A DNA stretch of 64,000 nt. Origin: Alloalcanivorax marinus. GTDB lineage: Bacteria; Pseudomonadota; Gammaproteobacteria; Pseudomonadales; Alcanivoracaceae. Shown here one piece after another: positions 5,657 to 61,170 of this stretch. How positions within the stretch are numbered: position 1 is the first letter of the stretch; each line of letters opens with the position of its first letter. The translations under genes were made by a program, and so were the position numbers. A model generated the notes under the pieces. The model saw only the letters and a program-made list of their open reading frames with translations. It was not told where the DNA came from and made no database searches. The stretch is from assembly GCF_016906305.1 (NCBI RefSeq), contig NZ_JADDOL010000012.1, positions 1 to 64,000 of the forward strand, given 5' to 3'.

Positions 5657-5688
5657 GCCGTGGGAGCGGCTTCAGCCGCACCCACGGC
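5657..5688. repeat. REP-like hairpin after mucD
   Basis: Two 14-base arms (5657-5670 and 5675-5688), complementary except for one A/A position, flank a TTCA loop. The core GGGAGCGGCTTCAGCCGC matches the REP-type palindromes common between genes of pseudomonads and relatives. It may also act as a terminator or mRNA-end stabiliser for the mucD transcript; no U-tract follows. Confidence 0.7.
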
Positions 5689-11770: not shown

Positions 11771-11847
11771 GGGCGGGCTCCGGAAGTGGTTGGGTAACGA
11801 GGCGACATGTTAGCAGAGATTCGCGGCCGTCCGACCGCGATCATGCG

Positions 11848-17803: not shown

Positions 17804-20047
17804 ATGGTAACCGTACGCCGGCAACCGTCCGACGAGGTCCAGGCCAGGGACTGGCAGGGATGGCTGGAACAACTCACCGCCCGGGTCCCGGTGCGTGATC
17901 CCCACGCTCTGGAGCGCGCCTGTGCCCGCGCCGAACAGTGCGAACGGGCCGGCGAAGCGGCCGGCCGCCACTGGCCCTACGGCAAGGGCTGCCTGACCAT
18001 CGGCCTGGAAATGGCGGACGTGCTCGCCGACCTGGGCGCCGACGCGGAAGCGCTGCCGGCGGCGGTGCTGTACCGGGCGGTGCGCGAAGGCCAGCTGTCG
18101 TTGCTGGACGTGCAGCGCGAATTCGGCTCCTCGGTGGCCACCCTGATCGAAGGGGTGCTGCGCATGGCCGCCATCAGTACCTCCCTCAACCCCACCCGCA
18201 AGGCGGTGCTCGGCCAGCAGGACGGCCAGCTCGACAATGTCCGCAAGATGCTGCTGGCCATGGTCGACGACGTGCGCGTGGCGCTGGTCAAGCTGGCGGA
18301 ACGGACGGTGATCATCCGCGCCGTGAAGGAATCCGACCCGGAGCGCCAGCAGAAGGTGGCCCGGGAAATCTTCGACATCTACGCGCCGCTGGCCCACCGC
18401 CTGGGCGTCGGCCAGCTCAAGTGGGAGCTGGAGGACCTGTCGTTCCGTTACCTGCAGCCCGGTGCCTACAAGAAAGTGGCGCGGCTGCTGGACGAGAAAC
18501 GCCTGGACCGCGAGCACTATATCGACGAGGTGATCCAGAGCCTGCGCGGGCATCTGGAACGCAACGGCATCAAGGGCGCCCAGGTGTACGGCCGCGCCAA
18601 GCACATCTACAGCATCTGGCGGAAGATGCAGAAGAAGCATCTGGACTTCGGCGAGGTGTACGACGTGCGCGCCGTCCGGGTGCTGGTCAACGAGGTGCGC
18701 GACTGCTACGCCGCCCTGGGCATCGTGCACTCGCTGTGGAAGCACGTGCCCAAGGAGTTCGACGACTACATCGCCAGCCCCAAGGAAAACGGCTACCAGA
18801 GCCTGCACACCGCGGTGGTGGGCCCGGAACGCAAAATGCTGGAGGTGCAGATCCGTACCTTCGATATGCACGAAGAGGCGGAGCTGGGCGTGTGCGCCCA
18901 CTGGCGTTACAAGGAAGGCAGCAAGGCCGGCCGGCGCAGCCAGTCCTACGAGCAGCGCATCGCCTGGCTGCGCCAGGTGCTGGAGTGGCACGAGGAGCTG
19001 GGCGACAACGACAACTCCAACACCATGATGGAGGAGCTGCAGCATGGCCTGGTCAGCGACCGGGTCTATGTGTTCACCCCGGACGGCCACGTGGTGGATC
19101 TGGAAGCCGGCGCCACGCCGGTGGATTTCGCCTACCACATCCACACCGAGGTGGGGCACCGCTGCCGGGGCGCCAAGGTCAACGGCCACATCGTGCCGCT
19201 CAGCTACAACCTGCAGACCGGCGAGCAGGTGGAGATTCTCACCGCCAAGGAGGGTGGGCCGAGCCGCGACTGGCTGACCCCGTCGCTGGGCTACGTGGCC
19301 ACCTCCTCGGCGCGGGCGCGCATTCAGCAATGGTTCAAGCGCCAGGACCGGGACGTGCACGTGGCCCAGGGCCGCGCCATCCTGGAGCGCGAGATGTCGC
19401 GGCTGGCCCTGGACCGCATCGACCTGGACCAGCTGGCGCCGCAGCTCAATCTGAAGACCGGCAACGACGTGCTGGCGGCCCTGGGCGCCGGTGACCTGCG
19501 CCCCGGCCACGTGGTCAACCAGGCCCAGGCGCTGCTGCCCGACGACCCGCAGCAACAGCTGGAATTCGTGCCGGCCCGCTCCAAGGCATCGGAAAGCGGC
19601 GACGTCACCATCCAGGGGGTGGGCAACCTGCTCACCCATATGGCGGCCTGCTGCAAGCCGGTGCCCGGCGACCCGGTGATGGGCTTCATCACCCAGGGAC
19701 GTGGCGTCACCGTGCACCGCGCCGACTGCCATAACCTGCTGGCGATGCAGGGCGAGGACCCGAACCGGGTGATCGAGGTGAGCTGGGGCGAGGCGGACCG
19801 CATCCTCTACCCGGTGGACATCTTCCTGCGCGCCTGGGACCGCCAGGGCCTGCTGCGCGACGTGATCGCCGTGCTCGCCAACGAGAAGGTCAATGTCACC
19901 GCCGTGCACACCCAGTCGCACACCGAGGACAACACCGCCACCATGCTGCTGACCCTGGAAATCGCTTCCCTGGGCGGCCTCGGCAAGGTGCTGGCGAAGA
20001 TGGATCAGATCAAGGGTGTCCTCGAAGTACGGCGCTACAAGAAATAG
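17804..20047 (+). CDS. relA: GTP pyrophosphokinase RelA (monofunctional (p)ppGpp synthetase)
   Basis: Ribosome-associated synthetase (747 aa) that makes (p)ppGpp when uncharged tRNA enters the A site. The N-terminal hydrolase-like domain lacks the catalytic HD pair (AAVLYRAVREG where Rel/SpoT has HD), so hydrolysis is not expected. The synthetase domain carries the RelA-type EFDD motif at residues 318-321 (KEFDDYIASPKENGYQSLH) rather than the RXKD of bifunctional enzymes. TGS (DRVYVFTPDGHVVDLEAG), helical/zinc-finger (AACCKPVPGD) and C-terminal ACT domains follow. It starts 24 bp after rlmD with AGGAA upstream. Confidence 0.96.
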   Translation: MVTVRRQPSDEVQARDWQGWLEQLTARVPVRDPHALERACARAEQCERAGEAAGRHWPYGKGCLTIGLEMADVLADLGADAEALPAAVLYRAVREGQLSLLDVQREFGSSVATLIEGVLRMAAISTSLNPTRKAVLGQQDGQLDNVRKMLLAMVDDVRVALVKLAERTVIIRAVKESDPERQQKVAREIFDIYAPLAHRLGVGQLKWELEDLSFRYLQPGAYKKVARLLDEKRLDREHYIDEVIQSLRGHLERNGIKGAQVYGRAKHIYSIWRKMQKKHLDFGEVYDVRAVRVLVNEVRDCYAALGIVHSLWKHVPKEFDDYIASPKENGYQSLHTAVVGPERKMLEVQIRTFDMHEEAELGVCAHWRYKEGSKAGRRSQSYEQRIAWLRQVLEWHEELGDNDNSNTMMEELQHGLVSDRVYVFTPDGHVVDLEAGATPVDFAYHIHTEVGHRCRGAKVNGHIVPLSYNLQTGEQVEILTAKEGGPSRDWLTPSLGYVATSSARARIQQWFKRQDRDVHVAQGRAILEREMSRLALDRIDLDQLAPQLNLKTGNDVLAALGAGDLRPGHVVNQAQALLPDDPQQQLEFVPARSKASESGDVTIQGVGNLLTHMAACCKPVPGDPVMGFITQGRGVTVHRADCHNLLAMQGEDPNRVIEVSWGEADRILYPVDIFLRAWDRQGLLRDVIAVLANEKVNVTAVHTQSHTEDNTATMLLTLEIASLGGLGKVLAKMDQIKGVLEVRRYKK

Positions 20048-20139
20048 CGGCCTTTCGGCCGCGATACAGGTTGCAGGATACAGGATGAAGGGAAGGCGTC
20101 ATGCCAGCCCCTGTATCCTTCATCCTGTATCCTGAATCG
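20047..20139. repeat. Hairpin plus heptanucleotide inverted array, copy 1
   Basis: Starting on the last base of the relA stop, a 6-bp hairpin (GCGGCC TTTC GGCCGC, 20047-20062) is followed by four in-register heptamers at 20064-20091 (ATACAGG, TTGCAGG, ATACAGG, ATGAAGG). After an 18-bp spacer come four inverted heptamers at 20110-20137 (CCTGTAT, CCTTCAT, CCTGTAT, CCTGAAT). The RNA could fold into a 28-bp imperfect stem. Copies with the same plan occur at 43233-43316 and, truncated, at 61140-61170. It lies between relA and mazG. Confidence 0.85.
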
Positions 20140-41720: not shown

Positions 41721-41794
41721 GGGCCTGTTCACACTACTTGCATCGCGCCTGTTGCGTCTATGAATCCACCGATGCAAGGAGTGTGAACAGGCCC
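41721..41794. repeat. 74-bp near-perfect palindrome
   Basis: Arms 41721-41745 (GGGCCTGTTCACACTACTTG...) and 41770-41794 pair at 24 of 25 positions around a 24-bp spacer. It lies in the 246-bp gap between divergent blc and ccmA. Size and symmetry fit a small mobile palindromic unit; it could also terminate or insulate. A second hairpin CCGGCCC GCC GGGCCGG is at 41824-41840. Confidence 0.8.
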
Positions 41795-42565: not shown

Positions 42566-43233
42566 GCGGCGTCTGGTGGGCGGCGCTGCGCCGCGAGCTG
42601 ACCCTGATCTGGCGGGCGCCGGCGGACATGGCGCAGCCGCTGTTCTTCTTCGTGGTGGTGGTCAGTCTGTTCCCGCTGGGGCTGTCGCCGAAACCGGAAT
42701 TGCTGGCTCTGGTGGCCCCCGGCGCGGTCTGGGTGGCGGCGCTGCTGGCGGTGATGCTGTCCCTGGACGGCCTGTTCCGCCGCGACCAGGAAAGCGGCGC
42801 CCTGGACCAGATGCTCACGGCCCCCGTGCTATCGGTGGTGCCGGTGTCCGCCAAACTGCTGGCCCACTGGCTGCTCACCGGCCTGCCGCTGGCTCTGATG
42901 GCGCCGCTGCTGGGCTACATGATGCAGCTGCCGGTGGCGGTGCTGGGCACGCTGATGGTGAGCGTGCTGCTGGGCACCCCCACGCTCACGGTGGTGGGCG
43001 CCATTGGCGCCGCGCTCACGGTGGGGCTCAATCGCGGCGGTATTCTGCTGGCGGTGCTGGTGCTGCCGCTGTACATCCCGGTGCTGGTGTTCGGCGCCGG
43101 CGTGGTGCGCACCGCCCAGGACGGCCTGCCCACGGACGGTCTGCTGGCGGTGCTGGGCGCGATTCTGGCGCTGGCGCTGAGTCTCGGGCCGCTGGCGGTG
43201 GCCCTGGGCCTGCGCATCAGCGCCGGGGATTAG
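42562..43233 (+). CDS. ccmB: Haem exporter permease CcmB
   Basis: Six-helix inner-membrane protein (223 aa) partnering CcmA. The N-terminal WAALRRELTLIWRAPADM and the RRDQESGALDQMLTAP loop are characteristic. The start is GTG at 42562 overlapping the ccmA stop (GTGA). The stop is immediately followed by a hairpin-heptad repeat element before ccmC. Confidence 0.95.
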
Positions 43234-43316
43234 CGCCCTGCGGGCGCGATACAGGATGCAGGTGACAGGATGAAAGAACACGCGCCCCTGTATCCTGCAT
43301 CCTGAATCCTGTATCG
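43233..43316. repeat. Hairpin plus heptanucleotide inverted array, copy 2
   Basis: Starting on the last base of the ccmB stop: hairpin GCGCCC TGC GGGCGC (43233-43247). Four heptamers follow at 43249-43276 (ATACAGG, ATGCAGG, TGACAGG, ATGAAAG), then a 10-bp spacer and four inverted heptamers at 43287-43314 (CCTGTAT, CCTGCAT, CCTGAAT, CCTGTAT). Same register and unit number as copy 1. It splits the ccmABCDE operon between B and C. Confidence 0.87.
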
Positions 43317-60297: not shown

Positions 60298-61137
60298 ATG
60301 AGTTATCTGAAGGACACGCCGCTGGGCCGCAACAGCGCCTTCATCGACCAGTACACGCCGTCCCTGCTGTGCCCGGTGCCGCGCTGGGACGCCCGCGAAT
60401 CCCTGGAACTGGACGACACGGCGCTGCCGTTCCACGGCCAGGACATCTGGAACGCCTACGAACTGTCCTGGCTCAACGAGAAGGGCAAGCCGGAGGTGGC
60501 GCTGGCGGAACTGGTGGTGCCCTGCACCTCGCCCAATATCATCGAATCCAAGTCGCTGAAGCTGTATCTCAACAGCTTCGCCAACAGCCGCTTTGCCGGC
60601 CGCGACCGGGTAGTGGAAACCATCGCCCGGGATCTGGGACAGGTGGCCGGGGCGCCGGTGGACGTGCGGGTCCTGACGCTGCGCGAAGCCCGTCAGCAGC
60701 CGCTCTGGGAAGAGCACGTCCGGGAAGAACCGGGCGAGCTGGTGGACAGCCTGGACGTGGCCTTCGAGCACTTCGAATACCGGCCGGAGCTGCTGCTCAC
60801 CGACCAGGGGCCGGAGCGCACCGGCGTGCTGGTTTCCCATCTGCTGCGCAGCCACTGCCCGGTGACCAACCAGCCGGACTGGGGCACCGTGCAGGTGCGC
60901 TACACCGGCCGGCCGATCAGCCCGGCCAGCTTTCTGCGCTACGTGGTGTCCCTGCGCAACCACCAGGGGTTCCATGAGCAGATCGTCGAGCAGATGTTCG
61001 TGGATCTGCGCCGCCACTGCGGCCCCCGCCAGCTGTCCGTGTACGGGCGCTTCACCCGCCGGGGCGGGCTCGACATCAACCCGTTCCGCTCCAACTACGA
61101 GGACGCGCCGCTCAACGCCCGCACCGTGCGCCAGTAG
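60298..61137 (+). CDS. queF: NADPH-dependent 7-cyano-7-deazaguanine reductase QueF (type II)
   Basis: Reduces preQ0 to preQ1 in queuosine biosynthesis. The 279-aa bimodular form has the nitrile-binding C187 in [11 protein letters not shown] and the QueF motif [12 protein letters not shown] in the N-terminal half, length and order as in E. coli. AGAGGAGAG precedes the ATG. A truncated heptad element follows the stop. Confidence 0.96.
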
Positions 61138-61139
61138 CA

Positions 61140-61170
61140 GCGGTCGTGCGACCGCGATTCAGGATGCGGG
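61140..61170. repeat. Hairpin plus heptads, truncated copy 3
   Basis: Three bases after the queF stop: hairpin GCGGTCG TG CGACCGC (61140-61155), then ATTCAGG and ATGCGGG (61157-61170). The inverted arm is missing, cut short by the convergent abgT-like gene end. Confidence 0.65.

Follow-up and report, generated by a model that had tools for sequence, protein, structure and literature searches.

Tandem repeats with a unit of 7 bp are found in excess in bacteria, an observation without a settled explanation (cited in PMC4692102). The closest described case is that of the GGGNATC (GGGAATC) heptads of Xanthomonas (Rehm et al. 2015; PMC4692102). The published account, in the parts that bear on our comparison, describes a preference for four units, positions near stop codons and convergent inverted pairs, 70 in Xcc and 75 in Xac. 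Few of the pairs lie between divergent genes, and they are generally not linked to ISs. Gene context is usually kept in a relative, with length and sequence changed. The same parts of the paper report the G-rich repeats from Xanthomonas and not from other gammaproteobacteria, discuss G-quadruplexes and cite an earlier idea that heptamers mirror the contact length of the polymerase (PMC4692102). Compared by published description, the elements that we find in Alloalcanivorax share with the Xanthomonas pairs the 7-bp units, the four-unit preference, the convergence, the proximity to stops and the rarity between divergent genes. They differ in that their units lack a GGG tract, several heptad sequences occur per genus and per genome, and one type can replace another at orthologous sites. 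Long cores edged by CGCG also set them apart, as does the outer hairpin next to ATNCAGG arms. Heptameric inverted repeats are known from Xanthomonas, and forms without GGG would be a variant of these.

Cyanobacteria carry several different heptanucleotide families within one genome; we know of no description in which these form convergent pairs of four-unit arms about a core. Three heptanucleotide tandem repeats in cyanobacterial Calothrix are among the examples mentioned (PMC4692102). The TAACTGA repeats of Beggiatoaceae are likewise abundant intergenic 7-bp tandem units, in two to six copies. The sections describing them present direct repeats (one indirect) that lie mostly just upstream of start codons and use one fixed heptad, related heptads being rare, and in all this they differ from our elements (PMC4679880). 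REPs, REPINs and BIMEs resemble our elements in being extragenic, palindromic, dispersed, often at gene ends and sometimes the source of a stop codon, as far as the cited sections go (PMC3733652, PMC3116915). Our literature searches found no bacterial paper for the heptad strings and none that pairs Alcanivorax with a REP-associated tyrosine transposase. Papers on Alcanivorax and repetitive extragenic palindromic sequences were judged unrelated from their listing, and the consulted part of PMC4666352 holds nothing relevant on heptamers.

Anatomy and recurrence of the elements

The window is the whole stretch of 64,000 nucleotides that we analysed (C4:1-64000 of a 4.05-Mb genome, labelled G000). 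Its relA-like protein shares 91-92% identity with the counterparts in Alloalcanivorax mobilis MT13131 and Alcanivorax sp. ih1; the labels relA, mazG, ccmB and ccmC are putative and come from reading the ORFs. A preliminary description placed three copies of a hairpin joined to heptad arrays in the window, and the coordinates re-read there agree: two copies are complete and one is truncated (Table 1). The relA-like ORF ends at 20047 (TAG stop 20045-20047), the ccmB-like ORF at 43233 and the ORF preceding copy 3 at 61137. In copy 1 a single G separates the hairpin from the first heptad, and the hairpin stem recurs in genomes G010 and G001 with a different loop sequence. Genome G003 has both arms at the third site, with one hairpin per end. 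Since the full element is kept there, copy 3 of the window is a deletion-truncated form. The consensus ATNCAGG, proposed from the window, does not describe every unit; TTGCAGG, ATGAAGG, TGACAGG and ATGAAAG fall outside it.

Table 1. Positions of the parts of the three heptad elements in the window.
Copy	Part	Position	Strand	Remarks
1	Outer hairpin	20047..20062	+	GCGGCC-TTTC-GGCCGC; first G is the final base of the relA-like TAG
1	Five-prime arm	20064..20091	+	Four heptads: ATACAGG TTGCAGG ATACAGG ATGAAGG
1	Short spacer	20092..20109	.	18 bp
1	Three-prime arm	20110..20137	-	Four inverted heptads
2	Outer hairpin	43233..43247	+	GCGCCC-TGC-GGGCGC; at the ccmB-like stop codon
2	Five-prime arm	43249..43276	+	Four heptads, two degenerate
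2	Short spacer	43277..43286	.	10 bp
2	Three-prime arm	43287..43314	-	Four inverted heptads
3	Outer hairpin	61140..61155	+	GCGGTC-GTGC-GACCGC
3	Remainder	61157..61170	+	Two heptads of the truncated element

The heptads are not a product of chance. With up to two mismatches, ATNCAGGATNCAGG has 14 matches in the window compared to a mean of 4.2 and a maximum of 10 in 100 shuffles; two of the 14 (10391 and 50970) fall outside the three copies. In the whole genome CAGGATNCAGG has 34 + 40 matches (74) and its reversed control 0 + 0, where several matches are isolated singles, probably coding coincidences, and matches overlap inside arrays, so that match counts are not element counts. Rfam at gathering scores gave three matches in the window, all of them tRNA. 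The earlier claim of a defined element is supported, and the heptads recur in the genome and in relatives well beyond the three loci. The pattern CAGGATNCAGGATNCAGG is present in 9 of the 13 genus genomes and in one further family genome (57 genomes searched). In a class-wide draw of 369 genomes six contain it: G000 has 27 matches and the other five have one or two each. Its reversed control matched four other genomes (G180, G389, G390, G420), once 15 times. From this distribution the ATNCAGG type is genus-centred. In this and the second class-wide search described below, reversed patterns match some genomes and are unclean nulls, as reversed heptads are themselves heptads.

We collected 88 elements, 26 from blindly fetched stretches and most of the others from loci fetched for ATNCAGG matches. 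They include several orthologous copies and one overlapping duplicate (L171), and the survey is conservative: copy 2, with its degenerate five-prime arm, is not among them. The elements were selected as inverted pairs (single arrays also exist) and only arm orientation is informative; 84 of the 88 have the AG strand on their left arm, hence the arms converge. By arm length about four units are present in 54/88 five-prime and 54/88 three-prime arms. An exact motif count over 164 arms, in which edge units are often degenerate, finds three units most commonly (76) and four next (56). At L171 (G001:C10, 1208-1410) two tandem five-prime arms lie opposite one three-prime arm, a possible duplication.

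Spacers of the ATNCAGG type measure 14-28 bp in 22 of 43 elements, 49 bp in one and 72-146 bp in 20; intermediate lengths are also seen in the other types. Long cores tend to be edged by CGCG. We read by eye 41 long cores of assigned heptad type: 34 have CGCG at most 12 bp from the five-prime edge and 29 at most 12 bp from the three-prime edge, compared to 674 of 3008 interior 12-mers. For AAAGTTR long cores the count is two of four at either edge.

The outer hairpin has a preferred register. A perfect stem of at least 6 bp ends exactly one base before 33 of 265 distinct ATNCAGG positions, which include internal units; perfect pairing is a selection rule here, and the 33 include orthologues. 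Such a stem at 0, 2, 3 and 4 bases before ATNCAGG is found 0, 7, 2 and 1 times, and the random rate for a single position is 64/20000. The 33 hairpins use 15 different stem sequences, and a stop triplet stands at the hairpin start in 20 of them (1895 of 20000 random 7-mers). A looser rule (stem of at least 5 bp within 6 nt) finds a hairpin at 47 of 107 element ends and at 556 of 5000 random positions. Hence many element ends lack an outer hairpin.

Period 7 and the turnover of heptad type

We searched for inverted pairs of tandem arrays at periods 4-14 in DNA fetched regardless of heptads: 400 kb each of G000, G002, G019 and G005, and 80 relA loci. Period 7 accounts for 27 of the 36 pairs, period 14 for three and the other periods from 4 to 13 for six. 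Triplet-shuffled DNA gave no pairs. The period-7 pairs number 16 in G019, eight in G002 and zero in both G000 and G005 per 400 kb. The remaining three come from relA loci of two close relatives (L086 and L087), and two of these sit between relA and mazG. Under a stricter setting the four 400-kb sets retain three pairs at period 7, one at period 14 and none at other periods. A pattern for AGT-type heptads matches 41 of the 369 class genomes at period 7 and 9 at period 8, as well as 19 of 34 near relatives. Across the class this pattern usually forms a lone array: 6 of the 29 loci fetched, including one in G000, have an inverted partner.

The heptad types of G019 include CAGTKAA, CAAGTNN, CGAGTNN, CAAGCNN and GACGTCN. 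Outside the window G000 itself also has AAAGTTR-type arrays (33 overlapping pattern matches; C1:166023 and C4:103190-109055), and at C1:166023 a 40-bp spacer separates two inverted arrays. Types may also meet within one locus. At L173 (G001:C33, about 1482-1600) an ATNCAGG arm is followed by TTCAGGC runs and then by GTCTGAC heptads; the unit sequence appears to change along the array and the period of 7 is retained. At L328 (G002:C41, 10750-10959) an ATNCAGG three-prime arm with its outer hairpin is nested within a CAAGTT-type element.

Orthologous sites show how the elements change, with site classes assigned by eye. Between relA and mazG 20 loci were read (family loci G013 and G020 were left out; loci G014 and G017 are incomplete). 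Four of the 13 genus genomes (G000, G003, G010 and, with a long spacer, G001) have an ATNCAGG element there. In G002 the site is occupied by GTTAAAA-type heptads around a long spacer, in G012 by a REP pair and a remnant ATNCAGG arm, and in G006 by another palindrome. No such element is seen in G004, G005, G007, G008, G009 and G011. Beyond the genus, G019 carries GTGAACA/GTTAACA (GTKAACA) heptads in an unchanged layout, and G015, G016, G021 and G022 have no heptad element at this site. The same gap in L088 (HGW-Gammaproteobacteria-14 MAG) holds a very different long inverted repeat without heptads.

Between ccmB and ccmC, ATNCAGG heptads occur in G000, G010 and G012, and AAAGTTG heptads in G003 and, in degenerate form, in G001. 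G002 has a REP pair there and G011 a deletion remnant; the remaining six of the 13 genus genomes have none. G000 and G003 are 94.6% identical across 61 kb, and despite this they carry different heptad types at this site. They differ again at window position 11826, where G000 has no more than a hairpin and G003 an AAAGTTR element. Because six of the 13 genus genomes lack the element at each of the two sites, it is dispensable there.

ATNCAGG had been put forward as the defining sequence of the element, which does not fit its replacement by other heptads at orthologous sites. The heptad sequence is not kept. What is kept is the 7-bp period, the convergent layout, the number of units and the position at the stop codon. 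Letters seem to count for less than spacing and layout.

Gene context, folding and arm pairing

Gene context was assigned with a crude ORF caller; 17 edge cases of the 88 were dropped, and 19 elements called inside an ORF were omitted from the distances. Of the 71 retained elements 52 are intergenic: 24 between co-directional, 21 between convergent and 7 between divergent gene pairs. Distances of -14 to 22 nt occur on 54 of 66 stop sides compared to 12 of 38 start sides, as counts without a random-placement null. These counts support the placement at stop codons first described for the window copies.

As RNA, the whole of copy 1 folds at -52.5 kcal/mol (z -6.7) and copy 2 at -44.1 kcal/mol (z -7.2). 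Both folds have two stems, the outer hairpin and the paired arms. At copy 1, the copy scanned for terminators, there is no sense-strand GC hairpin with a T tract; the sole terminator-like match lies on the minus strand, and we rejected the intrinsic terminator reading for this reason. The AGGA motifs were weighed against the CsrA consensus, and the CsrA reading was set aside since other heptads lack GGA.

In 43 ATNCAGG elements the match to the own arm (19.19) is no better than that to arms of other elements (19.10; 1946 of 5000 permutations as good), even though these elements had been selected for matching arms. Permutations as good or better number 1039 of 5000 for CAGTKAA, 870 for AAAGTTR, 122 for CAAGTNN (n=8) and 171 for CGAGTNN (n=5); CAAGCNN arms (n=7) matched worse than permuted ones (4990 of 5000 as good). 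Fine pairing between arms is thus not visibly selected. Arms pair through their common heptad type and not by base-by-base matching. Either an occasional mismatch is tolerated, or units matter singly.

Explanations for the element class

These sequences form a real, recurrent and structured element class. We tentatively favour, at slightly less than even confidence, the reading that this is a REP-like composite extragenic class acting as a hairpin at gene 3' ends. In each element two arms, with about four 7-bp units apiece, face each other across an often palindromic spacer, and many ATNCAGG copies have an extra outer GC hairpin. Once transcribed, the element would fold, beyond the stop codon, into a long 3' stem-loop. 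This stem-loop may protect or process the 3' end, or weaken read-through, similar to what has been proposed for REPs and BIMEs. The arms would evolve via slippage of units and replacement of whole elements. Fold scores, stop-codon position, period, layout, turnover and the likeness to Xanthomonas support the hairpin reading. The lack of arm matching, the missing sense-strand terminator at copy 1, dispensability at the two sites and the absence of pairs from 400 kb of G000 weaken it.

The elements are extragenic palindromes in many copies, like REPs and REPINs, and their arms are terminal inverted repeats, like those of MITEs. A composite of REP and heptads had been suspected from the window, and cores in G005 and G007, read by eye, can indeed contain a REP-like inverted pair of GTAGGAGC/GTGGGAGC type between the heptad arms. 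The outer hairpin itself had been likened to a REP. It seldom carries the tags: GTAG is near 2 of 33 hairpins and CGTC near none, and this, together with the tandem 7-bp arms and the lack of a specific Y1 link, separates the heptad elements from REPs, REPINs and BIMEs. The palindromes noted earlier at 5657, 23408 and 34177 are of AGCGGC type and have no heptads attached. A linked REP-associated transposase, also suggested, did not emerge. Y1 transposases occur in 13/13 genus genomes, with or without ATNCAGG, and no specific Y1/RAYT linkage to heptad pairs is seen: an ATNCAGG-like pair, the only type sought, lies at 3 of 30 Y1 loci (30 fetched of 48 matches). REPs of GTAGGAGC type lie at 11 of the 30 fetched loci and in 23 of 120 control tiles of G000.

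Mobility is a serious rival to the hairpin reading, though we consider it somewhat unlikely. The elements would be MITE-like and non-autonomous, their arms serving as terminal iterons for a transposase acting in trans, with insertion or survival near stop codons. Copies are dispersed, presence and type differ between genomes of 94.6% identity, and one G003 copy is flanked by outer hairpins on both sides. The CAGTKAA loci of G019 form a clear paralogous group with homologous cores (scores up to 89 compared to a null maximum of 31). The ATNCAGG cores, orthologues aside, are at best weakly alike across loci, and unit order differs between copies. No clean target-site duplication was seen, the empty orthologous sites being too diverged to reveal one; of transposases, Y1 was considered, and it is not linked. 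In all, 39 of 820 core pairs exceed the shuffle maximum (orthologues and the L171 duplicate account for part of these), and the null 99th percentile is exceeded by about 20% of same-type and 4-8% of different-type pairs. This pattern is more in keeping with old dispersed families than with a recent burst. In G001 (C27) we considered and rejected an autonomous element bounded by distant arrays, the interval consisting of ordinary-looking long ORFs and separate elements. A different, MITE-like sequence is present in the window at 41721-41794, a 75-bp insertion with inverted ends GGGCCTGTTCACACT that is absent in G003. All 13 genus genomes have these ends, in many cases as inverted pairs separated by about 250 bp, and the copy in the window seems to have been shortened internally.

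Alternatively, the arrays could be neutral products of slippage, with 7-bp units favoured by the polymerase and tolerated at 3' ends and the inversion derived from older palindromes. The almost pure (ATTCAGG)n runs in G001 (about seven units long), the excess of period 7 over period 8 for AGT-type heptads and the rarity of inverted partners among these point in this direction. Slippage does not account for about four units, convergence and CGCG-edged cores recurring with different heptads, and units within arms are heterogeneous, unlike simple slippage, so we regard this origin as decidedly improbable. Protein-binding iterons are very unlikely. Here a DNA- or RNA-binding protein would read single heptads and the arms would form a loop or nucleoid anchor, consistent with most positions being common to the units of one type and with the variable ATNCAGG positions being unmatched between arms. 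A sequence-specific protein would not tolerate the wholesale replacement of heptads at one site in relatives. The G-quadruplex proposed for the GGGNATC repeats is almost certainly not the answer, even though unit preference and positions match those given in the relevant parts of PMC4692102. Each ATNCAGG arm has four GG pairs, enough for at most a weak two-tetrad form. ATNCAGG units have GG only and the AAAGTTR and CAGTKAA types single Gs, hence a three-tetrad quadruplex cannot form from the arms, nor any from the other types, and we reject it as a general explanation.

The main idea for the closely similar Xanthomonas case is thus one of which most units here are incapable. A plan built mostly from such units, with differing heptads at orthologous sites, separates geometry from sequence. 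Alloalcanivorax is cultivable, which makes the question testable. A bolder reading, which we think unlikely, is that gene 3' ends keep or create a 7-bp architecture irrespective of sequence, with arms re-typed in place to an unrelated heptad. If true, re-typing that keeps the period, the number of units, the convergence and the CGCG-edged core would imply a partner or a process that measures a pitch of seven bases and does not read the letters.
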